In this document: positions 13,697 to 44,216 of the stretch, piece by piece
Layout: each line of letters begins with the position of its first letter
Position numbering within the stretch: position 1 is the first letter of the stretch
Assembly: GCF_004152845.1 (NCBI RefSeq)
Contig: NZ_SEON01000007.1
Location: 62,001-126,000, forward strand
DNA: 64,000 nucleotides
Direction of reading: 5' to 3'
Origin: Sphingobium fuliginis
Lineage (GTDB): Bacteria; Pseudomonadota; Alphaproteobacteria; Sphingomonadales; Sphingomonadaceae
The notes under the pieces: model-generated
The model's database searches: none
The model's input: only the letters and a program-made list of their open reading frames with translations
What the model was told of the DNA's origin: nothing
Position numbers and translations under genes: made by a program

Positions 13697-13702
13697 GCGT
13701 GT

Positions 13703-14956: not shown

Positions 14957-14968
14957 CGGCCGCCTCCT

Positions 14969-20276: not shown

Positions 20277-20325
20277 GCTCACCCTCCCAAAAATTTCATT
20301 TGTGCGAACCGGCACTATCGGGCAA

Positions 20326-20339
20326 TGGTATCGATGTCA
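20326..20339. promoter_or_regulatory. LacI-family operator between TonB receptor and esterase
   Basis: TGGTATCGATGTCA, a near palindrome with the central CG typical of LacI-family sites, lies between two divergent genes (50 bases before the receptor start, 17 before the esterase start). Its reverse-strand partner occurs at 23305-23318, where 12 of 14 bases are the same. The regulator encoded between them is the obvious binder. Confidence 0.7.
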
Positions 20340-20356
20340 ATCGGAGATCATCACGC

Positions 20357-21349
20357 GTGAAAAAGTCTGTAGAAAAAGAGGATGAGGGGTTTGGCACCGA
20401 TAACAATTGGGATGGCGCCGCGGTGCCGCCGCCTCCGTTCGCCCGCTGGGTCAGCGGCATGGCCGGGGATCGGTTTGAGGCGATCAGGGCGGACGATGCG
20501 CCGCCGATCGAAAGCGTCGATGAATTGCGCCGTCACTACGACCGCATCAACTCAGCGCGCCTGGAAGTGGCAAGCCGTCACTATCCGGTCGAGACAGAGG
20601 CTCTCGTCATCAACGGGATACCGGCGCAGTTGGTGCGGCGTCCATCGGCGCCCCCGGACAAGATCCTCATCTGCCTTCATGGGGGCGCTTTCATGTGGGG
20701 GAACGGGGCGGGAGCCTTGATCGAGGCAGTGCCGGTCGCGGCGGTTGCGGATATGGCGGTTCTGGCCGTGGAATACCGCCTCGCGCCGGAACATCCTTAT
20801 CCCTGCGCCGTGCTGGACGTGCTCACCGTCATCGATGATCTCCGGTCGAAAAACCCTGCCCTCAAACTGGGCATCTATGGCTGCTCCGCGGGCGCGGTGC
20901 TGACGGCGCAGGTCGTGTCCCGCATGATCCAGCGCGGCGACCGGCTTCCGGAGGGGATAGCCATGCTCCATGCGGCCGGCGTCGATCTCGGCGGCGATTC
21001 GCTGGAGATGGCGGCGCTGCTCAACGGAACGGCGGATGCGGCGGCCGTCCAGCGGCTTCATGATCTGCCCTATTTCGCCGGTACCGATCCGAAGGACGCT
21101 TTTGTCTTTCCCGGTGAGCACCCCGCTGTTCTGGCACGATTCCCCCCCGCCCTGCTTGTGAGCGGGACCAGGGACTTCGCGGCCAGCTCCGTCACGGTCA
21201 TGCATCGGCGGCTGAGGGCGGCGGGCAGGGAGGCTGAATTGACGATGTTCGACGGCATGTGGCATGCGCACCACGTCGACGTTGACCTGCCGGAATCGCG
21301 GGAGGTATTCGCGCTTCTGGCGGCATTCTTCCAAAAACGCCTCTGCTGA
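20357..21349 (+). CDS. Alpha/beta hydrolase (HSL-type esterase), cytoplasmic
   Basis: A 330-residue hydrolase with HGGAFMWG oxyanion motif, nucleophile GCSAGAVL, and Asp/His in SGTRDF and MWHAHHVD. No signal peptide. Start set at GTG 20357, with GGAG about 10 bases upstream; an upstream GTG at 20300 would read through the operator. Transcribed divergently from the TonB receptor and sharing its operator, so it belongs to the same regulon. Family members hydrolyse short to medium acyl esters. Confidence 0.87.
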   Translation: MKKSVEKEDEGFGTDNNWDGAAVPPPPFARWVSGMAGDRFEAIRADDAPPIESVDELRRHYDRINSARLEVASRHYPVETEALVINGIPAQLVRRPSAPPDKILICLHGGAFMWGNGAGALIEAVPVAAVADMAVLAVEYRLAPEHPYPCAVLDVLTVIDDLRSKNPALKLGIYGCSAGAVLTAQVVSRMIQRGDRLPEGIAMLHAAGVDLGGDSLEMAALLNGTADAAAVQRLHDLPYFAGTDPKDAFVFPGEHPAVLARFPPALLVSGTRDFAASSVTVMHRRLRAAGREAELTMFDGMWHAHHVDVDLPESREVFALLAAFFQKRLC

Positions 21350-21364
21350 GCAGAAGCGGGTTCC

Positions 21365-22378
21365 TCAGCTGCTCTGCCGGACAATGAGTTCCACGGGAAG
21401 GATCGTGGAGGAAAAGCCTTTTTCTTCCCCCGCGACCGACTGCAGGATCGCCTCGCCCAACAGCCTGCCGGCAGCCGACCAGTCCTGGCGAATCGTGGTC
21501 AGGGGCGGCCGGTTGCTTGTGGCCACCGCAATATCGTCGAAACCGGTGATCGCGACCTCATCGGGCACTCGCATGCCTCTGTCGATAAGAGCGTCGCAAG
21601 CGCCGGCAGCGATAAAGTCGCTGGCCGCGATGATCGCGTCGAACTCCATATTCTGGCTCAACGCCTGTTGCACGGCTGACGCACCCGCCACGCGCGAGAA
21701 TTCGCAAGCGATGCTGCCGACGAGCGCCGCCGTCGTGGCGGCCACGACATCGCGAACCCCTTCCAGGCGTTCGCCCACCTCCGGGTGGCGATGATCGCCC
21801 AGGAAAAGAATTTTGCGCCGGCCCCTTTCCACCAGATGCCCGGCGGCGAGCCGTCCACCCTGCCGGTTATCGCTCCCGATGACGGTCAGGCCATTTGCGG
21901 CAGTGACGGCGCCCCATATCACCATGGGCAAGCCCAATGCGGCGATCGGCTTCACCCTTTCCCCCTTCAGGCCCTGTCCCAGCATGATGATGCCGTCCGC
22001 ATCGATGGCGTTATGATCAAGATAGTGATCGCTGGTGGTCAGAAGCATGGCGTAGCCGGAAGGGGTCAGGATTTCCAGCAGGCCGCCGATCATCGCAAGC
22101 AGCAGCGGATCGGATATGGGGCGGTCGCCGGCGATCAGGCGTTCGATGACCATGGCGATGGTATGCGACCGCCTCGTCCGCAACGACCGTGCCGCAGAGT
22201 TCATCCGATAGCCGGCCTCACGGGCAATCTCGACTATTTTTTCGCGCAACTCGGGCCGCACAAGGGCACTGCCGCCCAGAGCGCGGGACACGGTGATCTT
22301 GGATACTCCCGCCATCTTTGCGACCATCGCCATGGTGGGGCGGGCTGGGGCGCTCTCTTTCTTGGGTGGCGTACTCAT
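21365..22378 (-). CDS. LacI-family transcriptional regulator
   Basis: A 337-residue regulator with N-terminal helix-turn-helix (MVAKMAGVSKITVSRAL, about 18-34), hinge region NSAARSLRTRRSHTIAMV, and a periplasmic-binding-protein-like sensor domain with GSDNRQGG and the C-terminal ITGFDDIAVATSNRPPLTTI motif. It probably represses the flanking genes until a sugar is bound. Its start overlaps the stop of the upstream esterase by 4 bases, so it is co-transcribed from a promoter carrying the same operator, which gives autoregulation. The sugar could be trehalose or a derivative. Confidence 0.94.
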   Translation of the reverse strand: MSTPPKKESAPARPTMAMVAKMAGVSKITVSRALGGSALVRPELREKIVEIAREAGYRMNSAARSLRTRRSHTIAMVIERLIAGDRPISDPLLLAMIGGLLEILTPSGYAMLLTTSDHYLDHNAIDADGIIMLGQGLKGERVKPIAALGLPMVIWGAVTAANGLTVIGSDNRQGGRLAAGHLVERGRRKILFLGDHRHPEVGERLEGVRDVVAATTAALVGSIACEFSRVAGASAVQQALSQNMEFDAIIAASDFIAAGACDALIDRGMRVPDEVAITGFDDIAVATSNRPPLTTIRQDWSAAGRLLGEAILQSVAGEEKGFSSTILPVELIVRQSS

Positions 22379-23582: not shown

Positions 23583-25049
23583 TCAGGCAGTTCCGCCAAC
23601 GACCATCTCATCGATCCGAATGGTCGGCTGGCCGACACAGACGGGAACAGTCTGCCCTTCCTTGCCGCAAACGCCATCAGCGAAACGCAGATCATTGCCG
23701 ATCATGGACACATGCTTGAGCGCCTCGTGGCCGAGGCCGATCAACACGGCGCCCTGGATCGGGGCGGTCACCTTTCCATCTTCGATCAGATAGGCTTCGG
23801 TGGCCGAAAAATTGAACTGGCCACTCGTAATGTCCACCGTGCCACCGCCAAAAGCGACGGCATAGACACCGTGTCTGACCGACCGGATAATCTCCTCCGG
23901 CTCCTTGTCGCCGGGGGCAAGGTAGGTGTTGGTCATCCGCGGCATCGGCAGATGAGCATGGCTTTGGCGCCGGCCGTTGCCAGTGGGCGCCCGCCCCATC
24001 AGACGAGCGCTTTTCCGATCCTGCATCAAACCGGTGAGATGCCCGTTTTCGATCAGGACGTTGCGTGAGGTGGGCACGCCTTCGTCATCCACGTTCAGCG
24101 AGCCGCGATGTTCGGCCAGGGTGCCGTCATCGATCACCGTCACGCCCTCCGCCGCGATCCGCCCGTTCATTCGTTCCGTAAAGACCGAGGACCGCTTGAG
24201 GTGCGCGTCCGCTTCCAGGCCGTGGCCGACCGCTTCGTGCAGCAGGACACCGGGGAAACCATTGCCCAGCACCACCGACATCACACCCGACGGCGCCGGC
24301 CGGGCGTCGAGGTTCACAAGCGCTATTCTCACGGCGGTGCGCACCAGCCGTTCCAGCCGCTCGCCGTGGAACTCGGCCAGGGTGAAGCGTCCTCCCTCCA
24401 CGCCGGTGCCCATGGCCCGGCGCGTCCCGGACTGGGCGATGACGGTGACGGCCAGCTGCACCAATGGCCGCACATCGGCCGCGACCGATGCGTCGCTGTC
24501 CATGACCAGGATAATGTTGTGCGAGGCTTCCAGCCGGCCTGATACCTGAACGATACGCGGATCGGCCTCGCGGCAGCGACGATCGAGTTCCTGTAGGAGC
24601 AAAATCTTCCCGGCGTCAGGCAACGACTCCAGCGGATTGTCGATGCCATACAGCAGCGGGCGCTTGTTGCCGGTGTCGATGGCCACACCCCCGCTCCGTC
24701 GCGCGTCATCGCCATGCAGCAGCATGCTTCGCACGGTACCGGTGGCCGCCTCGATCGCCTTGGGCGTCATATCGCCGGAATATGCGAAGGCTGTCTGCTC
24801 TCCGGTGACCGCGCGTGCGCCGAAGCCTTGCGAGATGGAGAACTGTCCCGCGGACACCTTGCCGTCGTCAAGGCTCCAGCTTTCGGCCTGGCCTGCCTCG
24901 AAGTAGAGATCGGCATGGTCGGCACCGTTGCCGAGCAGCCTGTCGACAGCGGCAGCCACTGTCCCGCGCACCAGTCCGGCGGGTTCCAGCAACCGGTGCT
25001 CCGCGATCGACACCGCATCCTGTTGCGACATTTCCTGATAGGCCGACAT
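23583..25049 (-). CDS. tldD: TldD metallopeptidase subunit
   Basis: A 488-residue member of the TldD/PmbA family. The zinc motif HEAVGHGLEAD (271-281) is intact, with GFPGVLLHEA before it and the C-terminal TDD-type region (FADGVCGKEGQTVPVCVG). TldD pairs with TldE to form a heterodimeric peptidase that takes unfolded or modified peptides (microcin B17 leader, CcdA). The gene is last in the seven-gene operon starting with a TonB receptor, 19 bases after tldE. AGGAGA precedes the ATG. Many genomes keep tldD and tldE apart from transport genes, so the linkage here is informative. Confidence 0.94.
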   Translation of the reverse strand: MSAYQEMSQQDAVSIAEHRLLEPAGLVRGTVAAAVDRLLGNGADHADLYFEAGQAESWSLDDGKVSAGQFSISQGFGARAVTGEQTAFAYSGDMTPKAIEAATGTVRSMLLHGDDARRSGGVAIDTGNKRPLLYGIDNPLESLPDAGKILLLQELDRRCREADPRIVQVSGRLEASHNIILVMDSDASVAADVRPLVQLAVTVIAQSGTRRAMGTGVEGGRFTLAEFHGERLERLVRTAVRIALVNLDARPAPSGVMSVVLGNGFPGVLLHEAVGHGLEADAHLKRSSVFTERMNGRIAAEGVTVIDDGTLAEHRGSLNVDDEGVPTSRNVLIENGHLTGLMQDRKSARLMGRAPTGNGRRQSHAHLPMPRMTNTYLAPGDKEPEEIIRSVRHGVYAVAFGGGTVDITSGQFNFSATEAYLIEDGKVTAPIQGAVLIGLGHEALKHVSMIGNDLRFADGVCGKEGQTVPVCVGQPTIRIDEMVVGGTA

Positions 25050-25068
25050 GGTTTCTCCTGCTCCGCGA

Positions 25069-26472
25069 TCACCGGCCCGCGATGCGCATGGACTCGATCA
25101 GAACGGACCCGGTCCGCACCGCGCCGCTGCGATGAACATCGCCGCCGATCGCGACGATCTGCCGCAGCATCACCGGCAGTTCACCGGCAATCGTGATGTC
25201 CTGCACCGGAAAGGCGACGGCGCCATTCTCGATCCAGAACCCCGCGGCTGCCTTCGAATAGGTACCCGTGACCGGGTCGACGGCCCCCCCGATCAACTCA
25301 GTGACCCAAAGTCCCCGATCCAGAAGACGCAGCAGCGCCGCTGTCGATCGGGGGGGATGGCGGCTGGTGAAATGCAGGTTGCGGACGCCATCGGCATTGC
25401 CCGTCGGTTGAAGGCCGAGCTTGCGCGCGTAGAAGCACGATAGAAAATAATCCTCCACGCGCCCACCTGAAATCACGAAACGGTGGATGCTCGCGACGCC
25501 CTCGCTGTCGCACACGCCGCTGCCAAGGCCATAAGGTTCGAACGGGTCCTCAAGCAGATCGACATGGCCGGAAAGTGCCTGCGCGCCCTTGCCCCCGGTC
25601 AGGAACGTCGCGCCCCTATATTGGGCCGCGCCGGTCAGTGCCCCGACAATATCGTACACCAGGCTCGCGGCGACCGGCGCGTCGAACAGGACGGGGCATG
25701 TTTGCGTGTCGACTGTGCGACCGCCCCGCTTGCGCAACGCGCGGTCCGCCGCCGTCCTGCCGACCATGAAGGGCGGCAGGAGCTGCGATACGCGCCGATC
25801 GGAACTCGACCAGCTATCCTGCACCATCATCCCGTCTTGCTCGGCGATGGCGCTGCACCAGATATCATGTCTGGACGCGACGAGCGAACGATCGAAATCG
25901 CGCCCGATCGCCATGGCGGCGCTGGCGTCGATGCTGGCGGCGCCGGCGTCATTGACGCGGACCGACCCGCCGCCTGTCGCCAGGGCCGCCTCTTCGATCT
26001 CCAGCGCCATGCCGCCAAGATCCTGCGCGGTGAGGTTCGAAGGCTCGAACATCGGCACCTCGGACGCGGACCGTGCAAGCCACTCGTCCGCGGCGGGAGC
26101 GGCGTCGGGATCGGGCTCGACCGTGCGGGCGATCGCGATGGCGCGTTCCGCCGCGAGATCAAGGCCCGCCCGGGTCAGGGCGGAGGTGGTCGCCGTTCCG
26201 GTACGGCCGCGATCGAATACCCGAATGCTGACGACCTGCTTGCCTTCGCGGACCGCGCTGCCGAACACGCCGCCGCGCGCGCGCATGACGATGCCTGCGA
26301 CTTCGTTGGCGGAAGCAACGACCTGCTGCGCGCCACGCTGCATGGCGCGGTTTGCTGCGTCTCGCGCGATCTGCGCCAAATCTTCCCTGCTTTTCAGGAG
26401 ATAACCGTCGCCTGAGCCACGCACGATCCCGTTCCTCCTCACCCAGTCCAGTCGCTGTACGGCCGATGACAT
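25069..26472 (-). CDS. tldE: TldE/PmbA subunit
   Basis: A 467-residue PmbA/TldE protein, homologous to TldD but lacking the HExxxH motif, as expected for the non-catalytic partner that closes the active-site cavity. Family features: RGGVFGSAVREGKQVVSIRV, LFDAPVAASLVYDI, TGGKGAQALS, and a C-terminal GGAVDPVTGTYSKAAAGFWI with IGGDVHRSGAVRTGSV. It is 45 bases after the preceding gene and 19 before tldD. Slightly longer than E. coli TldE (450). Role: substrate threading with TldD in the cytoplasm. Confidence 0.93.
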   Translation of the reverse strand: MSSAVQRLDWVRRNGIVRGSGDGYLLKSREDLAQIARDAANRAMQRGAQQVVASANEVAGIVMRARGGVFGSAVREGKQVVSIRVFDRGRTGTATTSALTRAGLDLAAERAIAIARTVEPDPDAAPAADEWLARSASEVPMFEPSNLTAQDLGGMALEIEEAALATGGGSVRVNDAGAASIDASAAMAIGRDFDRSLVASRHDIWCSAIAEQDGMMVQDSWSSSDRRVSQLLPPFMVGRTAADRALRKRGGRTVDTQTCPVLFDAPVAASLVYDIVGALTGAAQYRGATFLTGGKGAQALSGHVDLLEDPFEPYGLGSGVCDSEGVASIHRFVISGGRVEDYFLSCFYARKLGLQPTGNADGVRNLHFTSRHPPRSTAALLRLLDRGLWVTELIGGAVDPVTGTYSKAAAGFWIENGAVAFPVQDITIAGELPVMLRQIVAIGGDVHRSGAVRTGSVLIESMRIAGR

Positions 26473-26517
26473 CCTGTTGATCCTGCCCCGTCGCCCATAC
26501 GGCCCGTCACCGCCGTT

Positions 26518-27408
26518 TCAGGCGCTCACCATCGAAGCCGGCGCGGTGGACAGAGAGGCGACCTGGCGCAACAAACCGTCTCGACCGAGGCGGTACATAT
26601 TGTCGACCGCGGCCCGCGTCCGCTGGCCATAAAGATCGAGGTCGGAAGGATTGGCGGCGATGAAGTCGGCCACACCCTTGTTATAGGCGTCGCGATAGAA
26701 GGGCGTCGTCTCGATGGGCCCTCCTTCAGGCGCTACGTCAGTGCCTTCCGCTCTTGCCTGCTGCACGGCGGCGTCTGCGTTTGCACGGGCGGAGGCGGCC
26801 ATGCGATCGAAGCGCTCGTTGGCCGCGGATTGCTTTTCCGCGGTCCACTCCAGGTCCCGGCCCACTTCAGCGAACAGCATGGCCTTCCAGGCGTAGATCA
26901 TGTCGGCCGCTGCGCCAGGCGCGCTGCCAAGGTCCCAGGCTGCCGCGGCAATCCCCTCAATCGCTGCCGCCTGCACGTCATCGCCGCCATCGCGGCTCGC
27001 CAGCCTGATCCGCACCTGTCGCCAGTCGCTGCGAGCCACGTCCTCGCCCGCAGCGGCACGGCGCTGGAGGTCGCAGACCCTGTCCCCGCTCGCCCGCAGC
27101 ACGGCATCGCCAACCCGATTTCGAAGTCCGGTCTCCGCATCCGTCCATAGCCATTCGATCCAGCGCGCAGCGGCAATCCGGCCGTCCGCGCCTGGCGGCA
27201 GTGCTTCAACGACCTGGCGCCAGAAGCCCACGTCGCCGGTCGCGAAGGTCATGATCAGGTTCAGGAAACTAAGGTCGAGATCATATCGGGCTGCAAAAGC
27301 CGAGACCTCCGCCGCCGGCGTTGCATAGAATGGCAATGCCGCCGCATCGCCGTTCCGCTCGGCCTCCGCGATCAGCGTCAGCAGAGCGCGCCTGCTCGCG
27401 ATGCTCAC
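26518..27408 (-). CDS. Unknown helical protein A, paralogue of the gene at 27817
   Basis: I do not recognise the family. The 296-residue protein is rich in Ala, Arg, Asp and Trp, has no signal peptide or membrane segment, and looks all-helical. Its middle part aligns with the protein at 27817-28629: WIEWLWTDA against WLLWLWNDA, then RRAAAGEDV against RRVLAGEAV, AAWDLGSAPGAAAD against SMWDLHATPGAVAD, and EWTAEKQ against GWTAAEH. Its GTG start overlaps the thioredoxin stop by 4 bases, so it is made together with thioredoxin. It could be a substrate-handling, cofactor or scaffold protein for the TldDE step; this is inference from position only. Confidence 0.85.
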   Translation of the reverse strand: MSIASRRALLTLIAEAERNGDAAALPFYATPAAEVSAFAARYDLDLSFLNLIMTFATGDVGFWRQVVEALPPGADGRIAAARWIEWLWTDAETGLRNRVGDAVLRASGDRVCDLQRRAAAGEDVARSDWRQVRIRLASRDGGDDVQAAAIEGIAAAAWDLGSAPGAAADMIYAWKAMLFAEVGRDLEWTAEKQSAANERFDRMAASARANADAAVQQARAEGTDVAPEGGPIETTPFYRDAYNKGVADFIAANPSDLDLYGQRTRAAVDNMYRLGRDGLLRQVASLSTAPASMVSA

Positions 27409-27740
27409 TGGGCGGCCTCGATGGCGGCTTCCAGCGCCGCTGCCAATTTCGACCGGCTCATGCTGCCGGTGAACCGTTCCACCAGTTCGCCGCGGTTGAA
27501 GATCATGAACGTGGGGACGCCCATGATGCCCTGGGCATGACGGGTGTCGGGATTCTCGTCGATGTCGACCAGATAGACTGCCGCCTCGCCCTCATATTCG
27601 CGCGCAAGGTCCTCGATCGCCGGCGCCATCGCCTTGCACGGCCCGCACCAGGCCGCCGTAAAGTCGACAAGCACGGGAATGTCCGACTTCAGGACCTTTT
27701 CCTCGAAGGTTGCGTCGGTGGCCGATGGGATATTTGCCAT
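27405..27740 (-). CDS. Thioredoxin
   Basis: A 111-residue single-domain thioredoxin with WCGPC (31-35), VDFTAAWCGPCKAMAP and the cis-proline motif GVPTFMIF. No signal peptide, so it is a cytoplasmic disulfide reductase. Unlike a housekeeping trx it is embedded between two paralogous unknown genes, coupled by GTGA overlap to the second. A thioredoxin reductase gene lies about 8 kb away in the same region. Likely job: reducing a disulfide in the imported peptide or in the partner proteins. GAGGAA precedes the ATG. Confidence 0.94.
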   Translation of the reverse strand: MANIPSATDATFEEKVLKSDIPVLVDFTAAWCGPCKAMAPAIEDLAREYEGEAAVYLVDIDENPDTRHAQGIMGVPTFMIFNRGELVERFTGSMSRSKLAAALEAAIEAAQ

Positions 27741-27816
27741 GATATGTTCCTCAATGGTGGCCGATCTTCGCCGTTCTCAAACGGGAAGAAGGGGCGTGAT
27801 GTGTTGGGTGAAGGGG

Positions 27817-28629
27817 TCAGCGGCTGACGATGCCGCACAATCCGGCCCGCAATTCTTCAACGCGCGCGGTCATGATCTTCTGCCGCTCCGCCTGCCAGGT
27901 CCGCCAATTGTCGAAATCGTCCGAGCTGAGCGGGACGGGGTTCTCCAGCGTGTATCGCTGCAGGCGTTCACCGAAGGCGGCATCGTCTTCGCCGGGCAGC
28001 CTGCGGTTATGATGCGCCTGCTCGATGCCATAGGCGTCCCAGGTCGATTGCACCCGATGATGCTCGGCTGCCGTCCAGCCTGCCGGTTCAAAGGCATCCG
28101 CAGCGCTGGATTGGACTATCCAGGTGCTGGCGACGTCGGCCACGGCTCCCGGCGTCGCATGGAGGTCCCACATAGACGACATGATCGCTTCGACCGCTGC
28201 CTCGGGAGCGTCCGGCGTCATCGCCGCTGCGAACTGCCGGCGGGCCGCGCGCCAGACCGGGTTGCTGACCGCCTCTCCGGCAAGCACGCGCCGGTGGATC
28301 TCCATGACTTCCTCGACCGCCCGAATGTCGCGCTCTTCGGACAGGCGGGACCGTATCGGCGTCGGCGCATCGTTCCACAACCACAGCAACCAACGCAGCC
28401 CGTCCCCCGGCTGGATTCGCGCTTCTTCCACAATGGCCGTGACGAAAGCCGCCTGTCCATGCTCGTCCATGCGGGACAATTCGCCTGCAAGCAGGATGGT
28501 GGCCGCATCAATGCCTCGCGATCCTGCCCATTCGATCAGCGCCGCAGAGCGCGAACCGTCAGTGAAAAGCGGGGCGACCGGGTCGGCGGCGGCGGCCACG
28601 TCCTGTAACCTCTGATTGTGCTCAGTCAT
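27817..28629 (-). CDS. Unknown helical protein B, paralogue of the gene at 26518
   Basis: A 270-residue protein of unknown family, homologous to protein A over about 130 central residues (see WLLWLWNDA, HRRVLAGEAV, SSMWDLHATPGAVADVAS, GWTAAEHH). No signal peptide, no membrane segment, and only one cysteine, near the C-terminus. Its start overlaps the ABC transporter stop by 8 bases and it precedes thioredoxin by 76 bases. Two diverged copies in one operon suggest either a heterodimer or two similar sequential steps. Nothing in the sequence shows a catalytic motif that I can name. Confidence 0.85.
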   Translation of the reverse strand: MTEHNQRLQDVAAAADPVAPLFTDGSRSAALIEWAGSRGIDAATILLAGELSRMDEHGQAAFVTAIVEEARIQPGDGLRWLLWLWNDAPTPIRSRLSEERDIRAVEEVMEIHRRVLAGEAVSNPVWRAARRQFAAAMTPDAPEAAVEAIMSSMWDLHATPGAVADVASTWIVQSSAADAFEPAGWTAAEHHRVQSTWDAYGIEQAHHNRRLPGEDDAAFGERLQRYTLENPVPLSSDDFDNWRTWQAERQKIMTARVEELRAGLCGIVSR

Positions 28630-30448
28630 TATGGGATCTTTCAGACTGGTTGATTAGCGCCCCCTCGGCAGCCCCCTTGAGCTCGGCGATCGTGACCCCA
28701 CCATTCTCGATCTGCAGCTGATGGCTATGATATCGAGTCAGCCGGTCGGTATGGGCGATCGTGACGAGCGACGTGTCGGGCAGTCGCCGGGCAAGCACGT
28801 CGAACATCGCCGCTTCCGTCTTGGGATCGAGCGAGCTCGTCGCCTCGTCCAGGAACAGGAAATCGGGCTTTTGCAGCAGCGCCCGGGCGAGCACCACGCG
28901 CTGCTGTTCCCCGGGAGAAAGCCGTTTCGCCCAGCTCCGCGCGGCGCCGATGTCGCCGATCAGGCGCTCAAGCCGAATGTCCGTCAGCACTGCACGATAG
29001 TCCGCCGGGGCGAACGCATCGGAAGGACTGGGATAGCTCAGCAGCTCCGCCAACGTGCCGTTCGGCAGATAAGGCTTCTGCGGCAGGAACATGACCCTCG
29101 ATCCTTGCGACGGATGCTCTACCGTGCCCGATCCAAACGGCCAGATGCCAGACATGACCCGGAAGAAGGTGCTCTTGCCCGATCCGGACATGCCCCGCAC
29201 CAGCCAGCGCTCTCCGGCGCCGATCGTGAGCTTGTCGATCGAGAACAGCTTATGGCCGGCCGCGGTTCGTACTTCCAGGTCGCGCACCGCAAACTCAGGC
29301 CTGTCGGCAGCGGCGTGCACGAAGCCCGAGGACTGCTCATATGACAGCGACTCGTCCATCAGCTGGATACGCTGCGACGCCGATCGCAGGAGCGCAAATC
29401 CGTCATAATTTGTTGAGATGCTGCCAAATGCGTGAAACACCGCGCCGAATGCCACCCCCGCGATGGTAAGGTCGCCGACCTGCATCTTGCCGGCCAGAAC
29501 GAGTGGGAAGAGAAGGACAGTCGGAATGACCGACGCCAACAGGGTGATCAGCACCCGCACCGCCTCAAGGCTCGCGGCACTCCCCGTGTACGGTCGCCAG
29601 TTCCGCCGGATCAGTGCATAGTCGTGCCGGGCACGGGCTTCCTCGAGCGCCTGCCCGCCGCCCAGAACGATCTGTTCGGCAAATTCGCGGGCCTGACCGA
29701 GATCGTGGCGGAAACCTGCCTCGATCCGCTGCCGCACCACGTCCAGCCGCGTATAGATCCGGCCGATCAGGTGAGCGCTGAGCGTCGCAACGATCGCCGT
29801 CGCGATCGCCAGAACATAGAGCGCCCGTGGTATGATGATCTGCCCGCCGGACGGCATGGAGACTGGCAGCGGTGAAGACAGCAGCCATAACTGGTTGGAG
29901 TAAAGGTAGAACGTCGTGGCCGACGTAACCAGCGCGGGAGCCAGCTGAATAAGATACAGGCCAAAATTATAGACATCTTCCTGGACCCGCTGTTCGGGAT
30001 GGTCGAGCGCGTGGTCCTGCAACGGACGATAAAAGCCGCGGCCGCCCAGCCACCGCCTCAATAGCTCGCCCGTGAGCGCCGTCCTGATGCGGATACGCAG
30101 GGTATAGGCGAGTGCCGATTGCAAGCCATGATGGATTGCGGTCAGGACGATGAAGACCACCGCGCCTGTCAGCGCGGCGACCACGGCAGGACGATTGCTG
30201 ACGACCAGACCGTTGGTGACGTTTGCAAGCTCCCTGATGTACCGCAATTGCAGGTAAGAGCCGACCGCGCCCGCGCCTAGCAAAAGAACCCACAAAGGCA
30301 CGGCAAAAATCCAGTCCCGCCTGACGTGAAACGCAAGGAGGCGGACCATGTAGGCGACGTCTCCCCAGACATTGCGATGTGCAAAATCCGGGGGACATTC
30401 GGTCGCGACTACGGCATCAGCACCAATGTCGGATACGCTCGCGGTCAC
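28622..30448 (-). CDS. SbmA/BacA-like ABC transporter with fused ATPase
   Basis: A 608-residue transporter: an N-terminal ABC_membrane_2 (SbmA/BacA-like) domain with about six membrane segments to residue 350, then an ATPase domain with Walker A GMSGSGKST (419-427), signature LSPGEQQR and Walker B FLFLDEATS. This is the YddA/Rv1819c layout. SbmA and BacA, without ATPase, import peptides, and Rv1819c imports hydrophilic molecules such as cobalamin, so import of a peptide across the inner membrane is the best guess, though export is possible. GTG start with GAGGT upstream; it begins 3 bases after the TonB receptor gene. Confidence 0.9.
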   Translation of the reverse strand: MTASVSDIGADAVVATECPPDFAHRNVWGDVAYMVRLLAFHVRRDWIFAVPLWVLLLGAGAVGSYLQLRYIRELANVTNGLVVSNRPAVVAALTGAVVFIVLTAIHHGLQSALAYTLRIRIRTALTGELLRRWLGGRGFYRPLQDHALDHPEQRVQEDVYNFGLYLIQLAPALVTSATTFYLYSNQLWLLSSPLPVSMPSGGQIIIPRALYVLAIATAIVATLSAHLIGRIYTRLDVVRQRIEAGFRHDLGQAREFAEQIVLGGGQALEEARARHDYALIRRNWRPYTGSAASLEAVRVLITLLASVIPTVLLFPLVLAGKMQVGDLTIAGVAFGAVFHAFGSISTNYDGFALLRSASQRIQLMDESLSYEQSSGFVHAAADRPEFAVRDLEVRTAAGHKLFSIDKLTIGAGERWLVRGMSGSGKSTFFRVMSGIWPFGSGTVEHPSQGSRVMFLPQKPYLPNGTLAELLSYPSPSDAFAPADYRAVLTDIRLERLIGDIGAARSWAKRLSPGEQQRVVLARALLQKPDFLFLDEATSSLDPKTEAAMFDVLARRLPDTSLVTIAHTDRLTRYHSHQLQIENGGVTIAELKGAAEGALINQSERSHND

Positions 30449-30451
30449 ATT

Positions 30452-32785
30452 CTACCTCGATTTCGGCAAAGCCGCGGTGAAGACGAGCCGAAATTCCCGG
30501 CCGACCCCCTGGTAAAGGCTGTTGGCCACCAGCGGCGTATAAATATTGAACCGATCGAACAGATTGTTGACCGTCAGGTTCAGCTTATATGGACCGTAGG
30601 TATAACCGACGGCGGCATCGAAACGAACATATTTAATCGGAAACTTCGGATAAGTGGTTATGCCGGTCAAGGAATCGGTCTTAACCAGATTGACATTGCT
30701 CTGATAGTTGCCGCCAAAGCCGATGTCGAGTTGCTGCCTGTCGCCAAGCGTGAAGGACTTCAGCAGCCAGGCATTTGCCTGATAACGCGGCGCTGAAACA
30801 AGGGGTGTTGCGCTTCTGGAGGTGGTGTAGGCAAATCCGCTCTGCAGGAACAGCGTTGGCGTGATCTTCCCACTTTGATTGATCTCGAAACCCTCCGACT
30901 TCTGCCCGGGACCGGGAATGTAAAAACCCGGATGCGCCGGATCGATCAGGGGATAATTGTTGTTGTCCTTTCGGAAATAGTCGCCGGTTACCGAAAGGCG
31001 GCCACCGAAAAGCTCCAGCTTGACGCCGGCTTCGTGCCCTGTGCTGATGGCGGCCGGAAATGGCGCCCCCCGATAGGTCCGGACCCCCAAATTAGGGGGG
31101 GTTACGGCCTTCTGATAGGTGTAATAGATCGACGCCCATTTCGTGGCGCTAAAGACCAATCCGCCGGTCGGCAGCAGCTTGCTGATGCGCTGATCCGCGT
31201 CGTTGTTGATAAGATAGGGGTAAAAGACCTGCCGACTTGTCAAATCGTACCAGGTCTGGCGCGCACTGAGGAGGGCATGAAAGGGCCCCCAGCTTATCTG
31301 GTCCTGAACCACGAGGCCGTAATCCTTGCGGGTTGCCCGCAGCTCATTCCTGTTGGGATTGCTGCTGTCGGGAATAGACCCAAGCGAAGGAAGCGGCTGG
31401 AAGGGGACCAATGCGCTATAACCGGATGCGATCTGGTTGATCTTCTGCCATGAATAATCGAAAGCGACGATAAATTGCTGCGTGACCGATCCGGTCTCAA
31501 GCTTGGCGTAAAGGTCGCTCGATGAGCTGAACTGATAGTTTTTCGAGAAACTGTTGTTGCCTGTCACCAAGTCGATGATGCCGATGGCGCCGCCGAAATT
31601 ATACTTGCCCTGATAAAGCTGGTTTTGAAGGGTCTGCTCGGCATATTGATACCGCATTCGCGATCGCAAGCGGAGCGTGAACGCCTCGGACGTGACAAGA
31701 TCGCGTTCGACGCCCAGATTCTGCGACAGCGACCGGGTTTTATAATAGTTGTTATCGTTGGAAAAAATTGTCACCGGCTGAACGGTGTTTGTCGTCGGGT
31801 CTGCATAATATAGTTTGCCGTAGACAATGCGAGTGTCGTAGACTTGGGAACTTGCGTCGATCTTCCATCCATTGTCCCGGTAACCGAAGATCGCGGAAGC
31901 CGCATAGGAATGTGGATTTTGCCCTCCATTGCTTTGCCGGTCCGCATGCTCCGACAAGCCGACAAAACGCCAATACAGCCGGTCGGATTCGGAGATCGTT
32001 CCTCCGACATCCACTGAACCACGAATATAGTCGTTGCTGCCCACGCCGAAGTCGAATTGGGGAAGGCTTGTCCCCGTCGCCCTTTTCGGGTTGAGATTGA
32101 CCAGGCCGCCAGCCACCGAGGTCCCGGTCAGAACGGATGACGGTCCTTTCAAAACCTCGATCGACTCCACGTCGATCGTAGGCGCGTCTCCCCCCGCAAT
32201 CGAGTTTCGGAGGCCGTTGGTGAACGAAGCGCCCCGCGTGCTGTCCCCACGTGAACTGATCTGGCTCGGCGGACCTGGGGTATAAGTCACGCCCGGCAGG
32301 TTCCGAATAGCTTCGTTCAATGAAGTCGTGTTCTGGGTTGCGAGCACCGATTGCGTCACCGACACGATCGTTCCCGGCGTATCCTTCAAGGGCGTGTCGG
32401 AGCGGGTGAGAAGATTGGAGTCCTCCTTGCGAAGAGGATCGCGCCTGCCAGTGACGATGATGTCCGCGTTTCCGCCGGAGCGGGCGATACGAACCTGTCC
32501 GTTACCCGCCGTCTCGACGAACCACTTGCTGCCTGCCAGCGCCTCCCGAAGGGCTTGCGCAAGTGTCAAATTACCGCGTACAGGCCCCACGACCTGATCG
32601 AGCCCCTTGTCGGCCGCGTCAGCGAACGATACGTCAGCACCTGCGATACCGGCGATTGTCTGGATGACCTGCCGCCGCGGGCCTGCCGCAACATCGAAGT
32701 CGTAGCGCGTGACGGTCTGCCCATAAGCCTGTTGCGCGCCGCACACGGCCAGCGCCACCACAGCGGTTGTAGTTCCCCACCTCAT
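30452..32785 (-). CDS. TonB-dependent receptor with N-terminal STN domain
   Basis: A 777-residue receptor. A signal peptide (MRWGTTTAVVALAVCGAQQAYG) is followed by an STN domain (YDFDVAAGPRRQVIQTIAGI and on to about residue 100), as in FecA-type transducing receptors. Then come the TonB box DIIVTGRR, a plug with IEVLKGPSSVLTGTSVAGGL, and a beta-barrel ending REFRLVFTAALP. Sequence relatives are annotated as siderophore receptors, but the operon points to a peptide or modified peptide ligand. The ATG at 32785 has GGGAGGA 6 bases upstream. No sigma/anti-sigma pair is nearby. The gene is noticeably more A/T-rich than its neighbours. Confidence 0.92.
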   Translation of the reverse strand: MRWGTTTAVVALAVCGAQQAYGQTVTRYDFDVAAGPRRQVIQTIAGIAGADVSFADAADKGLDQVVGPVRGNLTLAQALREALAGSKWFVETAGNGQVRIARSGGNADIIVTGRRDPLRKEDSNLLTRSDTPLKDTPGTIVSVTQSVLATQNTTSLNEAIRNLPGVTYTPGPPSQISSRGDSTRGASFTNGLRNSIAGGDAPTIDVESIEVLKGPSSVLTGTSVAGGLVNLNPKRATGTSLPQFDFGVGSNDYIRGSVDVGGTISESDRLYWRFVGLSEHADRQSNGGQNPHSYAASAIFGYRDNGWKIDASSQVYDTRIVYGKLYYADPTTNTVQPVTIFSNDNNYYKTRSLSQNLGVERDLVTSEAFTLRLRSRMRYQYAEQTLQNQLYQGKYNFGGAIGIIDLVTGNNSFSKNYQFSSSSDLYAKLETGSVTQQFIVAFDYSWQKINQIASGYSALVPFQPLPSLGSIPDSSNPNRNELRATRKDYGLVVQDQISWGPFHALLSARQTWYDLTSRQVFYPYLINNDADQRISKLLPTGGLVFSATKWASIYYTYQKAVTPPNLGVRTYRGAPFPAAISTGHEAGVKLELFGGRLSVTGDYFRKDNNNYPLIDPAHPGFYIPGPGQKSEGFEINQSGKITPTLFLQSGFAYTTSRSATPLVSAPRYQANAWLLKSFTLGDRQQLDIGFGGNYQSNVNLVKTDSLTGITTYPKFPIKYVRFDAAVGYTYGPYKLNLTVNNLFDRFNIYTPLVANSLYQGVGREFRLVFTAALPKSR

Positions 32786-33207
32786 TCCGAGTCCTCCCTT
32801 TCGTGCCTCGACGCCCGGGATCTGTTTCACCGAACATCGCAATCCAGGCTGGCATGACCATCTCCGCAGCTGCCGCGCTCCTTGCAGCGCATTTGTCGAG
32901 TTTGCGCTGAAACGGAAGAAGAAGGGGCGAGGTGACGGCGAATCGTTATCCCATCTCGGGTTGGCAGGAGCGACATTAATTCGCCATATTGATATATTCA
33001 AGGGATTATGTTCGCTTTATATGACGAATAATCTAATTTTCTTTATCACGCGGAGTTTGCGGTGGTTTTTCGTTTCGCTGTCTCGTCGTCCCGGCAGCCT
33101 TCAGCTATGGTGCCATGCCACATTCAGCGCCGATCTTGGCTGATCTATTGACCCGAAATCGCTATGCCCTCACGGCAAAATCGACGCCGGGCATTAAGGA
33201 GAGCGAC
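32786..33207. promoter_or_regulatory. A/T-rich divergent promoter region between TonB receptor and Lrp-type regulator
   Basis: These 422 bases hold no convincing gene. The part from about 32975 to 33070 is strongly A/T-rich (GATATATTC, CTTTATATGACG, AATCTAATTTTCTTTATC) against a GC-rich background, which fits promoters and binding sites for the Lrp/AsnC protein encoded next to it. I could not define a clear operator. Confidence 0.55.
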
Positions 33208-33702
33208 GTGCACGATTTCGACCTTCACGACATCAAGATATTGGGGATTGTGCAGGATAATGCCAATGTAACGATCAAGGAGGTTGCCGAACTCGTGGGG
33301 CTGTCCCAGAATGCCTGCTGGAAGAGGATCAAATCTTTTGAAGACCGCGGCGTCATCAAGAGGCGAGTGACCGTATTAAATCCGTCTTCATTGGGGTTTC
33401 ATCTGATAGCCTTTGTCAACGTCAAGGCAGCGGAGCATTCCGAGGAATGGAACACCAGTTTTCAACAGGCGGTTTTAAGCATACCGCAGGTCATCGAGTT
33501 TTACAGGCTTGCCGGCAGCGTTGATTACATCATCAAGGTCCTTCTGCCCGACATTGCGGGTTTCGACTCATTCTACAAGGTGCTGACCAGCAAAGTTCGC
33601 CTCACCGAAGTTTCGACGTCCTTCGCAGTGGGGGAATATCGCAATTCAAGCGCCATTCCCCTGCCTTTGCCATTGAACACGTCCCCGGACGCGGCTGAGT
33701 AA
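33208..33702 (+). CDS. Lrp/AsnC-family transcriptional regulator
   Basis: A 164-residue regulator: N-terminal helix-turn-helix (TIKEVAELVGLSQNACWKRI) and a RAM/AsnC effector domain (FYRLAGSVDYIIKVLLPDI). Members sense amino acids or small metabolites. The GTG at 33208 is chosen because AAGGAG stands 6 bases upstream; a longer ATG frame from 33115 lacks a site. Divergent from the receptor-ABC-TldDE operon, so it is the likely local regulator, tuned to an amino acid released from the peptide. Confidence 0.92.
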   Translation: MHDFDLHDIKILGIVQDNANVTIKEVAELVGLSQNACWKRIKSFEDRGVIKRRVTVLNPSSLGFHLIAFVNVKAAEHSEEWNTSFQQAVLSIPQVIEFYRLAGSVDYIIKVLLPDIAGFDSFYKVLTSKVRLTEVSTSFAVGEYRNSSAIPLPLPLNTSPDAAE

Positions 33703-33743: not shown

Positions 33744-35783
33744 TCAACGGTGCTCCACGATCAACCCGTGCCGCTTCAGGATCGCGCTGTTGTCGGGGTC
33801 CCGGCCGCGAAAGGCGCGGAAGCTGTTGGCCGCCGGGCGGCTGGCTCCCCTAGAGAGGACCTCGTCGCGAAACAACTCGCCGGTCGAGCGATCGACAAGG
33901 CCGGCTTCCGCGAACCTTTGAAACCCATCGGCTGCGAGTATCTCTGCCCAGAGATAGCTATAGTAGCCCGCAGCATAGCTTCCCGCGAAGATATGCGTGA
34001 AAGCATGCGGGAAGCGGTGCCACGCGGGCGGGCGAACGACGGCGACCTCTTCGCGGACCGCCTCGATCACCTCCATCGGATCGGAGCCCATCGTACCCAG
34101 ATGCAGCAGGATGTCGAACATCGACAACTCCACCTGCCTGACGATGAACATGCCCGACTGGAAGTGCCGGGCTGCGGACAGCCTGTCGAACAGCGACTGC
34201 GGCAAAGGTTCGCCGGTCACATGATGACCCGACATGCCGGTCAACACATCGCGATCCCAGGCGAAATCCTCCATGAGCTGGCTCGGCAACTCGATCGCGT
34301 CCCACTCGAAGCCCGTCGTTCCCGCGATGCTCGGCCGATCGACCCGCGTGAAGAGGTGGTGGAGGCAATGTCCGGTCTCGTGAAGGAGCGTCAGCACATC
34401 GGTATGAGACAGCAGCGAAGGCGCCGCTTCGCTTTTCGGCGTGAAGTTGCAGACCATATAGGCGACCGGCACGCCGATCATATCGCCATCGCTCAGCCGA
34501 GGACGCGCTGGAGCCATCCACGCGCCGCCGCGCTTGCCCGTCCGCGCGTGCAGATCGAGGTACAAACCGGCAATCGCCACGCCGCTCTCGTCGGCTACAT
34601 CGAAGTAGCGGGCGTCCTCATGCCACAGCGCGACATCCTGACGTTCGATCAGGCTGATGCCGAAAAGGCGCTTGAGAAGCGTTCCCCAACCCTGGAGGAC
34701 ACGCTGAACCGGGAAGTATGCGCGCACCGCCTGTTCATCGACCGAGTAACGCGCCTGCCGCAAACGGTTTGCGGTGAAGCCGATGTCCCATGGCTGGAGG
34801 GTTTCGATGCCCAGTTCGGCGGCGGCATGGTCGCGCAATTCCGCAAGGTCGCACTCTGCCACCGGCTTGGCGCGCTTCGCCAGGTCTCGCAGGAAGGCAA
34901 GAATCTCGCCGGCGTCGCTCGCCATCTTGGTGGCAAGCGACCAGTCGACCGGATCGGCGAAGCCCAACAGATGCGCTGCCTGGTGCCTCAACTCCAGAAT
35001 TCGCGCGATCCTCGCGGAATTGTCGAACTTCCCGGCCTGCGGTCCCTGATCGGAGCCGCGCGTGCCATAGGCTTCGTACACACGAGCGCGAAGTTCGCGA
35101 TTTTCGGCGAAAGTCAGCACGGCGTTGACGCTCGGTTGCTGCAATGTGACCAGCCACCCCTCTCGTCCCATTGCGAGAGCGGCCGCACGGAACATATCCT
35201 TGTCCGTGTCGGAAATCCCGGCGAGCAGCGCTTCATCGGTCACCAGTTCGGACCAGGCATCGGTCGCGTCGAGCACGGCGCTCGCAAATTCGGTCGAAAG
35301 CCGGGACAGTTCGACCGACATCTCGGCGTAGCTTGCCCGTGCCTCTGGTTCCAGCGCCACGCCGGACAGCCTGAAGTCGCGCAGGGCATGCTCGACCGCG
35401 ACCCGATCGGCAGCCGGCCGTTCTGCGAAGCCGGGCGATGTGGAGAGCGCCGTCAGAACATCGAACAGATCGCGATTCTGTCGCTTGCGCATATCGGCTT
35501 CGACCAGCCTGGCCTCGCCTGCGGCATAAGCAGCGCGAAGTTCCGACGTGTCCGCCACGGCATGCAGATGATAAACCGCTGACCAGAGCGCCTCGATCGC
35601 AACCCCGGCCCGCTCAAGCGGAAGCCATGTCTCCGTGAACGCGGTGGGCCGGTGCCGGACCAGCGCTTCGATGACCGCATCCTGCGCCGCAATGGCGACA
35701 TCCAGCGCTGATCCGATCGCCTCCGGCGTGATCGCCCCGAACGGAGGCAGTTCATTCGCTTGCAGCAGCGCGTTGATCGGCAT
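33744..35783 (-). CDS. M3-family oligopeptidase (oligopeptidase A/Dcp type)
   Basis: A 679-residue zinc metallopeptidase with the M3 motif LLHETGHCLHHLF about two thirds along, followed by GFEWDAIELPSQLMEDFAWD and YAAGYYSYLWAEI. Size matches oligopeptidase A (680). It cuts short peptides in the cytoplasm. The start at ATG 35783 (MPINALLQ) has AGAGG upstream; the longer frame lacks one. It lies downstream of trxB, 69 bases away, in the same direction. It would finish off fragments from TldDE. Confidence 0.93.
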   Translation of the reverse strand: MPINALLQANELPPFGAITPEAIGSALDVAIAAQDAVIEALVRHRPTAFTETWLPLERAGVAIEALWSAVYHLHAVADTSELRAAYAAGEARLVEADMRKRQNRDLFDVLTALSTSPGFAERPAADRVAVEHALRDFRLSGVALEPEARASYAEMSVELSRLSTEFASAVLDATDAWSELVTDEALLAGISDTDKDMFRAAALAMGREGWLVTLQQPSVNAVLTFAENRELRARVYEAYGTRGSDQGPQAGKFDNSARIARILELRHQAAHLLGFADPVDWSLATKMASDAGEILAFLRDLAKRAKPVAECDLAELRDHAAAELGIETLQPWDIGFTANRLRQARYSVDEQAVRAYFPVQRVLQGWGTLLKRLFGISLIERQDVALWHEDARYFDVADESGVAIAGLYLDLHARTGKRGGAWMAPARPRLSDGDMIGVPVAYMVCNFTPKSEAAPSLLSHTDVLTLLHETGHCLHHLFTRVDRPSIAGTTGFEWDAIELPSQLMEDFAWDRDVLTGMSGHHVTGEPLPQSLFDRLSAARHFQSGMFIVRQVELSMFDILLHLGTMGSDPMEVIEAVREEVAVVRPPAWHRFPHAFTHIFAGSYAAGYYSYLWAEILAADGFQRFAEAGLVDRSTGELFRDEVLSRGASRPAANSFRAFRGRDPDNSAILKRHGLIVEHR

Positions 35784-35852
35784 GGGTACCTCTTCGAAAC
35801 AGAAAGGACATGGCAGCGTGGCGCCCGGCCTGTGCCGCACGCGCCGACGCGC

Positions 35853-36830
35853 TCAGACAGTGACGGGAGCCCCGGGCTCCGCGGCGATGGCGTGAGGCAT
35901 ATGGCCTGCAAGATAGCGCTCGGCCTCCAGCGCCGCCATGCAACCCATGCCGGCGGACGTCACGGCCTGACGAAACAGCTTGTCCTGCACGTCACCGGCC
36001 GCGAATATGCCGGGCACGCTGGTGGCGGTCGAACCGGGGGTCACCAGAATATAGCCCTCCGCATCCATCGCGATCTGACCGGCGAACAGCGACGTGGCGG
36101 GATCGTGCCCGATCGCCACGAACAACCCATCGACGGCCAGCGCACGCGCTTGCCCATTACGGACATCGCGAAGCTCGACACCCGTCACGACGCGGCCATC
36201 GCCCCGGACCTCGGCCACTTCGGCATGCCAGACCATCTCGATCTTGGGATTGGCATGGAGGCGCGCCTGGTTGGTGCGGTCGGCGCGCAGTTCGCCCCTG
36301 CGATGGATCAAATAGACCTTTTCAGCGAAATTGGTGAGGTACAGCGCTTCCTCGACCGCGGTGTTTCCGCCGCCCACCACGGCAACCACGCGGTCGCGAT
36401 AGAAGAAGCCATCGCAAGTCGCGCAAGCGGATACGCCCGCGCCGCGATACCGCGTCTCGCTGTCGAGCCCCAGCCAGCGTGCCGACGCCCCTGTCGCGAT
36501 GACGACGGTATCGCCCGTATAGCGCGCGCCGCTGTCCCCAACCGCGACGAACGGCGTTGCGGCAAGATCGACCTCAACGATCGTGTCGGAAACGACCTCC
36601 GTGCCGACATGCGCCACCTGGGCAGCCATCCGCGCCATGAGGTCGGGACCCAGCACGCTCCTGTCCCCCGGCCAGTTCTCGACATCGGTGGTGATGGTAA
36701 GCTGACCACCGGGCTGCATCCCTTCGATCAACAGGGGCTTCAGCGCGGCACGCGCCGCATAGACTGCCGCGGTGTAGCCCGCCGGCCCCGAGCCAATGAT
36801 GAGCACCTTGCTATGGCGATCACGCGGCAT
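35853..36830 (-). CDS. trxB: Thioredoxin reductase
   Basis: A 325-residue FAD/NADPH enzyme: FAD motif [16 protein letters not shown] (13-28), redox pair CATC (136-139) and NADPH motif [14 protein letters not shown], ending [12 protein letters not shown]. It reduces thioredoxin at the cost of NADPH. It is paired here with the M3 peptidase and lies 8 kb from the operon thioredoxin. Whether this is the only trxB of the genome cannot be seen; if a second copy exists this one is likely dedicated to the local pathway. Confidence 0.95.
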
Positions 36831-37116: not shown

Positions 37117-37506
37117 TCAGCTTCTGTCCACCACCGCGAACATGGCCGCCGATCCGACATGAGCGCGCCGTGCGGGAGCATCCTCGCGCCTTATCCCGGC
37201 TTCGAGCGGATCGTTGCTGCCGAAGGCGGCGACTACGATCCGCACCACAGCGGCGGTCCGCTCGTCGATCAACCGGTAAACGACGGACTTGGCATCCCGC
37301 CGCTGGGCGACGAGTTCTGCACGCCGAAGCTCGCCCAATTGTTGGCTCAGGGCCGGCTGGCCGATCCCCGTGGCGGCATCGATGGCGGCCACCGACTGTT
37401 CGCCTTGAAGAAGGGCCGTCAGGATCGCCAGTCTTTGCGGCTGGGCAAAGACCCGCAATCGCTCCACGATCTCGGTCGCTGTCGCCCGGTCGATCGGATC
37501 AGCCAT
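37117..37506 (-). CDS. ArsR-family regulator without cysteines
   Basis: A 129-residue winged-helix repressor (QRLAILTALLQGEQSVAAI, IGQPALSQQLGELRRAELV, RRDAKSVVYRL). Its closest pattern is the BigR/SqrR/YgaV branch that senses sulfane sulfur or redox state, yet it contains no cysteine at all, so it must sense otherwise. Start MADPID at 37506 overlaps the peroxiredoxin stop by 8 bases; a longer frame would run far into that gene. It probably regulates the peroxiredoxin operon. Confidence 0.88.
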   Translation of the reverse strand: MADPIDRATATEIVERLRVFAQPQRLAILTALLQGEQSVAAIDAATGIGQPALSQQLGELRRAELVAQRRDAKSVVYRLIDERTAAVVRIVVAAFGSNDPLEAGIRREDAPARRAHVGSAAMFAVVDRS

Positions 37507-38161: not shown

Positions 38162-38239
38162 CACCCCTCCTACAAAAGCTTGCGGCGCGAGCAAAGAGCG
38201 GTTCGCGCGACAGGGCGCAAGTTGCGGCTATTTCCGCGA

Positions 38240-42786: not shown

Positions 42787-42887
42787 GCCGCATCCTTGCC
42801 ATGTCGGCGCACGATCGGCCACAGGCGATCGCATCGCGCCCGTTCGGTGCGCCTGTTGTGGCCAGCGACGCTCATGTCAGTGCGCCA

Positions 42888-43958: not shown

Positions 43959-44216
43959 GCCGCGACGTTCCCGCCGGCTCGACACTTGCCGTGCAACTTA
44001 TCGATCGTGCCACCAGCGGTGATTGGCGATATGCCGCTCATCAGCCCGTTCCCTCCACTTCCAGCTCCGCCAGCGAAACCCCAGCGAAATTTTCATTACA
44101 CGATTCAGGTAATATTGAAAGTGTTTGCGTTCGGTCAGGATCAACTACGGCTATCCAGACCACACCCCCCAAATGCGAGAGACCGCTTTACGATAATCCC
44201 GATAGATAGGCAGCCA

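Follow-up and report, generated by a model that had tools for sequence, protein, structure and literature searches.

What do two related proteins of no named family do on either side of a thioredoxin? The question is raised by a 64,000-nucleotide stretch of the Sphingobium fuliginis genome (NCBI RefSeq assembly GCF_004152845.1, contig NZ_SEON01000007.1, positions 62,001 to 126,000 of the forward strand), which we call the window. Its minus strand encodes protein A (26518–27408; 296 aa, GTG start), protein B (27817–28629; 270 aa, ATG start) and, between them, a thioredoxin (Trx; 27405–27740; 111 aa). We assigned A and B to one Trx-linked helical family, the AB family, on the basis of their open reading frames (ORFs), their mutual homology, structural models and gene neighbourhoods. 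A first-pass annotation, made from the DNA letters and ORF translations, had paired the two proteins and suggested a heterodimeric reductase partner or a peptide-binding pair. The reading that we favour, tentatively and at somewhat less than an even chance, is that A/B would be a cytosolic all-helical adaptor or holdase that works with a dedicated thioredoxin, in a pathway running from TonB/ABC import to TldD/E breakdown.

Two related helical proteins

A BLASTP comparison of A with B gave 38% identity over 93 residues (E 9e-14). Their local alignment scored 183, and 500 shuffles of B gave a mean score of 42.7 (standard deviation 7.8) and a maximum of 78. The first-pass annotation had stated that the absence of a significant relation would count against its pairing; both tests found such a relation. 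All four central motifs on which it had relied were present in both translations: RWIEWLWTDA in A and RWLLWLWNDA in B, RRAAAGEDV in A and RRVLAGEAV in B, WDLGSAPGAAAD in A and WDLHATPGAVAD in B, and WTA in both. We concluded from these alignments that A and B are paralogs. In a tree of the family they were not each other's nearest relatives, and the forks were weak. The row for locus L166 had been entered in the wrong frame (12 stops removed) and stood alone at the root; forks far from it were used, as weak evidence.

The family could not be named by the first-pass annotation, and indeed neither A nor B had a Pfam or NCBIfam model; the Pfam scan returned for B a single weak, unrelated line (E 0.095). 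AlphaFold models built from 17-row alignments (mean predicted local distance difference test score 89.7 for A and 83.2 for B) are all-helical for both proteins, and the predicted helices follow one another in a similar order. Among solved structures, a profile of 14 family sequences reached at best E 0.54. Fold searches with model A gave a best Foldseek hit in the PDB of E 0.27, and a best VIA-align Z of 6.0 over 47 residues, which is within that tool's "common arrangement" range. The same model matched two uncharacterised phage proteins in BFVD with probability 1.00 (E 0.024 and 0.15). A role in anti-phage defence was not indicated by PADLOC, which gave no match at E up to 0.1 for A, B or the proteins of L026, L119 and L033.

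Linkage to thioredoxin and the cysteine content of the family

We compared 26 loci: the window, 15 loci found by the family and 10 found through TldE. Many of them reach a contig or fetch edge, so the counts of companion genes are lower bounds. In 25 of the 26 loci, the window included and L164 excepted, a Trx gene stood next to a family gene or was fused with it. The tie to thioredoxin proposed by the first-pass annotation was thus borne out at 24 of the 25 other loci (14 of the 15 found by the family and all 10 found through TldE), and also by three one-frame fusions of a family protein with a Trx-family protein. One is a 412-aa protein on a Burkholderia glumae plasmid (L033); the others, L165 and L166, come from two genomes of one genus. 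The profile used on the loci included L033 and the plasmid locus L034 among its rows, and the membership of these two rests on weak plasmid matches and on the viral profile described below (E 1.8e-4, 0.033). The Trx-family fusion is found on B. glumae plasmids together with TonB, ExbB/D and ABC genes, near the sulfur genes sfnG/msuE; the plasmid examined is typed as conjugative.

Another fusion joins the family to a peptidase. At L163:9169-11976, a 935-aa protein combines a family domain (matching profile positions 2–284) with an S9 prolyl-oligopeptidase-type domain (residues 696–909). Its gene lies directly after a Trx gene, between that gene and one for a Cds1-like enzyme. Because the family domain is fused both to Trx and to a peptidase, we take A/B to be the partner that handles substrate for thioredoxin at the stage between import and proteolysis.

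The notion of a heterodimeric reductase partner survived in part. Its link to thioredoxin is strong, but the other two elements did not stand. Among 29 bacterial family members (L166 left out), four had no cysteine at all, none had a CxxC motif and four had CxxxC. Because four members lack cysteine altogether, the family protein itself is, to judge from these sequences, not redox-active. More than one family gene occurred in just 5 of the 26 loci, which argues against an obligate heterodimer. One such cluster (L019 and L180, both from genome G213) contains three genes of the family and as many Trx genes, with an AraC-type and an ECF-sigma-like gene between them. A role in handling substrate would fit the lack of cysteine conservation, since no electrons need be carried, and also the fast divergence reported below, since the protein would meet the substrate.

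Regulation was considered as another use for such a protein. A/B could be a redox sensor whose state follows the thioredoxin pool and which regulates either the operon or its transporter. The genes have the small size of regulator genes and are tightly coupled to Trx, and Lrp, AraC and ECF sigma regulators are common nearby. Those genes, however, already supply regulators; the Pfam and NCBIfam scans found no DNA-binding family in A or B, no sensing cysteine is conserved, and the S9 peptidase fusion better suits the handling of substrate. We consider a sensor very unlikely.

The Trx of the window is well supported (PF00085, E 2.3e-29; TIGR01068, 100.7 bits against a cut-off of 96.8) and counts as the genome's second TrxA-type gene, and its WCGPC motif is intact, as are HExxxH in TldD and HExxH in the M3 peptidase. 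This bears on the possibility that A/B is a structural subunit, using Trx as a scaffold and not as a reductant, for example in docking on the ABC transporter. The overlap of gene B with the ABC gene would suit this possibility, as would the loss of the tryptophan preceding CxxC in the Trx of L029 and L032. It is opposed by the retention of CxxC in all 13 cluster thioredoxins checked (L166 left out) and by the frequency of thioredoxin reductase as a companion, and we judged it the least probable of the explanations weighed here.

A putative import and breakdown pathway

Transcription of the minus strand runs through the TonB receptor, the ABC transporter, B, Trx, A, TldE and TldD. The close coupling noted earlier was found as described: the genes of A and Trx share 4 bp (27405–27408), those of B and the ABC transporter share 8 bp (28622–28629), and the largest gap, between Trx and B, is 76 bp. 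A scan for promoters and terminators gave results near the shuffled expectation and was not used. The FhuA/FoxA-like TonB-dependent receptor (30452–33001, minus strand; PF00593 and PF07715) has FhuA as its best solved relative (E 9.7e-26); its listed TTG start codon may lie too far upstream. The SbmA/YddA/ABCD-like transporter (28622–30448, minus strand; PF06472, PF00005 and PF05992) is a permease-ATPase fusion. Its best solved relatives are 6tqe, which we take to be mycobacterial Rv1819c, and ABCD1, of a family that includes the lysosomal cobalamin transporter ABCD4, and it is 26% identical to E. coli YddA over 484 aa (E 3e-49). These relatives suggest import.

Downstream lie a TldE/PmbA-like gene (25069–26472, minus strand; PF19289, E 7.6e-51), which is well under the cut-off of the PmbA model, and a TldD-like metallopeptidase gene (23583–25049, minus strand; NF008006, 518.9 bits against a cut-off of 513). 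The metal motif HExxxH is present in TldD only (HEAVGH at residue 271). TldD carries GVCGKEGQ, with its cysteine, near the C-terminus, as in the TldD/E protease, where passages of PMC5810440 describe a cysteine ligand at that place. On the same strand, farther upstream, are an M3 oligopeptidase (33744–35840; PF01432, E 4.4e-124; HETGH), a thioredoxin reductase (TrxR; 35853–36830; TIGR01292, 392 bits against a cut-off of 343) and a Cds1-like L-cysteine desulfhydrase, a pyridoxal phosphate enzyme (42888–43985; NF052478, 547 bits, just under the cut-off of 600).

Across the 26 loci the companions were ABC (23), TonB (20), TldD with TldE (19), TrxR (11), M3 (10), Cds1 (8), ExbB/D (6), DUF2891 (4), Lrp (4), M16 (2) and HyuA/B (2). 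The TonB count was made by BLAST to the window receptor, and L039 has a receptor of another kind. Elsewhere in the genome there are two more PF19289 places, another TrxR at 57% identity and other thioredoxins; for this reason we regard the TldD/E, TrxR and Trx of the cluster as additional, dedicated copies. Overall, the locus looks built for the uptake and breakdown of a peptide or small protein.

From this gene set we infer a direction of transport, a disulfide-bonded substrate, its binding by A/B and an order of steps. A disulfide-bonded peptide or small protein would cross the outer membrane via the TonB receptor and then the inner membrane via the SbmA/YddA-like transporter. In the cytosol, A/B would bind the substrate while Trx, recharged by the cluster TrxR, opened the disulfides. 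The opened chain would be passed to TldD/E, which would take unfolded chains only, and to the M3 or S9 peptidases, and released cysteine would go to the Cds1-like desulfhydrase. According to passages of PMC5810440, E. coli TldD/E has a narrow channel through which its polypeptide substrates are threaded, and it degrades them only when they are unfolded; because it takes only unfolded chains, a disulfide-locked substrate would need to be opened beforehand. The peptide-binding role suggested by the first-pass annotation would lie close to this reading.

Six loci hold the full set of eight components, and divergence was measured among five of them. The identities averaged 61 for the family protein, 71 for TonB, 75 for ABC, 78 for TldE, 80 for M3, 83 for Trx, 84 for Cds1 and 85 for TldD. 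Averages for the window against those five loci were 27 for A, 28 for TonB, 32 for ABC, 68 for M3 and 78 for Cds1. By these identities the family protein and the receptor are the fastest changing parts, and the divergence of the family protein, TonB and ABC is as expected if they face a varying substrate.

Several observations weigh against the adaptor reading. The fast divergence can also be explained by weak constraint. Two loci, L164 and L167, hold a family gene without Trx; the latter, found by the family and outside the 26-locus comparison, matched no window protein. Because these loci lack Trx and the phage relatives described below have no cluster genes nearby, thioredoxin cannot be needed for the role of the wider family. 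The TldD/E link is partly by construction, since TldE was the search route to 10 of the 19 loci that carry TldD/E. In the ~20 kb read at L165 and L166, no gene matched the ABC transporter. Both the direction of the ABC transporter and the binding of the substrate are predicted. Lastly, the nearest solved relatives of the TonB receptor are siderophore receptors, which would fit a ligand other than a peptide.

This last point leads to metal or siderophore uptake, in which Trx and A/B would free the metal in the cytosol, by reducing its ligand or opening a siderophore disulfide, and the peptidases would digest a peptidic siderophore. The receptor is nearest to FhuA, FoxA and the pseudopaline and pyochelin receptors, FecI/FecR-type regulators stand beside the Paraburkholderia locus, and ExbB/D occurs in 6 of the 26 loci. 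However, the receptor, at 161.5 bits, fell short of the 223.5-bit cut-off of the TonB-siderophore model, and no siderophore biosynthetic genes or siderophore reductase family were found among the genes annotated. Siderophore loci do not typically carry a cysteine desulfhydrase along with several dedicated peptidases, which we also counted against this explanation. We regard it as unlikely.

The peptidases could instead point to biosynthesis of a ribosomally synthesised and post-translationally modified peptide (RiPP). A/B would then bind the precursor or be the precursor, TldD/E would cut the leader, the ABC transporter would export the product and the TonB receptor would re-import it. TldD/E matures microcin B17, according to passages of PMC5810440, and it is also reported in other RiPP loci; the ABC family includes exporters as well. 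Yet the genes in 23583–33001 stand end to end and leave no space there for a precursor gene, and general family scans of the genes recognised no modifying enzyme, the flanks not having been searched with RiPP tools. A and B are themselves predicted, with high model confidence, to fold as globular proteins of 270–296 aa, without the cysteine-rich or repetitive core of a precursor, and M3, TrxR and Cds1 point to breakdown. RiPP biosynthesis is, in our judgement, quite unlikely.

The closest known systems are those for Fus ferredoxin uptake and their E. coli counterparts (FusABCD; YddA-YddB-PqqL), as described in parts of PMC5095587, PMC6793856 and PMC13253070. The window resembles them in having a TonB receptor and a fused ABC transporter in one cluster, the transporter being homologous to YddA. 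An M16 protease is also encoded at L029 and at L032, and one of the two is PqqL-like over 247 aa (E 3e-12, weak). In contrast, the window receptor had no similarity to YddB, the receptor compared (E 0.58), and BLAST with an M16 query over 20000–46000 found no M16 gene in the window operon; of the 26 loci, 2 have M16, and the query itself came from one of these. The window cluster also adds a cytosolic Trx, TrxR, TldD/E and the AB family, and the words "thioredoxin" and "TldD" are absent from the main text of PMC6793856. We class the locus as a variant import system and not as a member of Fus.

Similar comparisons can be made for the single parts. The ABC transporter shares the ABC_membrane_2 and SbmA_BacA domains with the SbmA/BacA/BclA and YddA-like transporters, and its ATPase is fused, as in the BclA kind; it differs in its low identity and in being linked with peptidases and a TonB receptor. 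The main text of a survey of peptide transporters (PMC12003926) does not contain "thioredoxin" or "sphingo". Like the TldD/E protease, the window pair has adjacent TldE and TldD genes, HExxxH solely in TldD and a TldD over the curated cut-off; unlike it, the copies are extra to the two other PF19289 places, and TldE falls well below the PmbA cut-off.

The chaperedoxin CnoX/YbbN combines a thioredoxin domain with a helical TPR domain. The AB system resembles it in linking a thioredoxin with a helical domain and in the role proposed for it, that of a holdase with a redox function; the differences are that A and B gave no TPR match (Pfam, E up to 1), that Trx and the helical protein are mostly separate genes and that CxxC is kept. 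A bolder form of the adaptor reading makes Trx-A/B a new import chaperedoxin in two parts, which in the cytosol, where the route across both membranes ends, would open and hold disulfide-locked peptides or small proteins from a host or competitor and feed them to TldD/E as food and a source of sulfur, and whose helical part a phage family would share or have supplied. We regard this proposal as doubtful. Searches of full-text literature, with most subscription journals outside their scope, found no description of a Trx/TldD/TonB/ABC module.

Peptides are known to enter by TonB and SbmA/YddA-type routes, as does a whole protein in Fus systems, but the later cytosolic steps are hardly described. 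Here the cytosolic half is seemingly encoded with the transporter, in the form of peptidases, a new helical partner and a dedicated Trx with its reductase. If the adaptor reading is true, the whole uptake of disulfide-bonded peptides or proteins as bacterial food becomes directly testable in Sphingobium, and a family common in phages too would gain its first function.

Distribution, phage relatives and surrounding genes

The AB family is rare and patchy. With A as query, 5 of the 199 family-group genomes matched, four of them marginally (E 0.001–0.008); with B, 6 of 94 genomes in the genus matched, three marginally (E 0.003–0.006, two with internal stops). Scans at higher ranks found at least 5 of 396 genomes in the order, at least 2 of 385 in the class and at least 8 of 398 in the phylum, these counts being lower bounds because six candidates were scored per genome. 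Two of the phylum matches were marginal (E 0.004 and 0.0096), and one class match, G739 (E 3.6e-4), lay inside a coiled-coil-like ORF and was judged to be chance. A scan of genome contigs with B as single protein gave no match. The TldE-led search yielded 80 loci, of which 12 had family genes in a profile search over their ORFs; the remainder look like ordinary PmbA loci (12 of the 80 were annotated by gene).

On plasmids, the L026 protein matched 20 records, including 17 from Burkholderia glumae at E 0.09. A as tblastn query matched one Paraburkholderia record weakly (E 6e-3), and tblastn against plasmids with B, the A-like protein of L019 or the L016 protein gave no match. L030, L031, L032 and L034 (several sphingomonads and a Paraburkholderia) carry the cluster on large plasmids, a location that fits the patchy distribution. 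In L031 (9884–10879), TrxR is in two pieces in overlapping frames, possibly a broken gene in that plasmid copy.

A tblastn search of phages with the L026 protein found no match, but viral relatives came from a profile-based search, in which patterns combined with tblastn on viral contigs returned 35 loci (L119–L153). These were gathered with AB-family patterns, and the comparison of viral with bacterial proteins is not blind. The viral proteins are homologous to the family over the N-terminal ~110 residues, followed by Ala-rich C-terminal repeats (WAA/SAA/AYA). When a profile of 25 viral proteins, cut before the repeats, was run on 3075 ORFs, 29 family ORFs ranked at the top, 23 of them at E <0.01 (best 5.7e-21). 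Window protein A reached only E 5 with this profile, and B and L018 were absent from the list. A profile of the A type, including A and B, did match one of the L094 type (98.1% probability, E 9.4e-14), so the window pair is linked to the viral family via intermediates. We take the phage family, on this profile evidence, to be a more distant relative of A/B.

The phage proteins differ from the bacterial ones in their repeats and in carrying CxxxC, found in 23 of 25 viral forms against 4 of 29 bacterial members, counted at any position. The viral loci had no match to any cluster protein, and no cluster genes lie nearby. Weak NCBIfam matches of L119 fell inside the Ala-rich part and were set aside. 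The phage family has a conserved CxxGC-like motif and overlaps PHROG 3416 and 18326, apparently with no known function.

Several further genes surround the main operon. An Lrp/AsnC-type regulator gene (33115–33702, plus strand) is divergent from the TonB gene; it is 39% identical by BLAST to the annotated Lrp/AsnC gene of a plasmid locus and has homologs in 3 of the 25 other loci. In Caulobacter radicis (L041:16041-20674), an Lrp-type regulator is flanked by a pair of SbmA/YddA-like ABC genes, of which one reads in two frames. Beyond the window's Lrp/AsnC gene, the M3, TrxR, peroxiredoxin, DUF2891, HyuA/B and Cds1-like genes form a second minus-strand block. The peroxiredoxin (37499–38194; NF009668, 233.8 bits against a cut-off of 211) is likely part of a wider island. 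The DUF2891 gene (38240–39238; PF11199, E 1.4e-112) overlaps by 4 bp a gene for a HyuA/HyuB-type ATP-dependent lactam hydrolase of the hydantoinase/5-oxoprolinase kind (39235–42834), which matched the caprolactamase alpha/beta models well below cut-off. This pair recurs in L048 on opposite strands, and because of that recurrence DUF2891 may act on the HyuA/B substrate.

On the other side of the operon, positions 12656–22378 of the window hold a second TonB receptor (17961–20315), a trehalase-like gene (16279–17964), several alpha/beta hydrolases and a LacI-type regulator, a block that looks like a separate unit.

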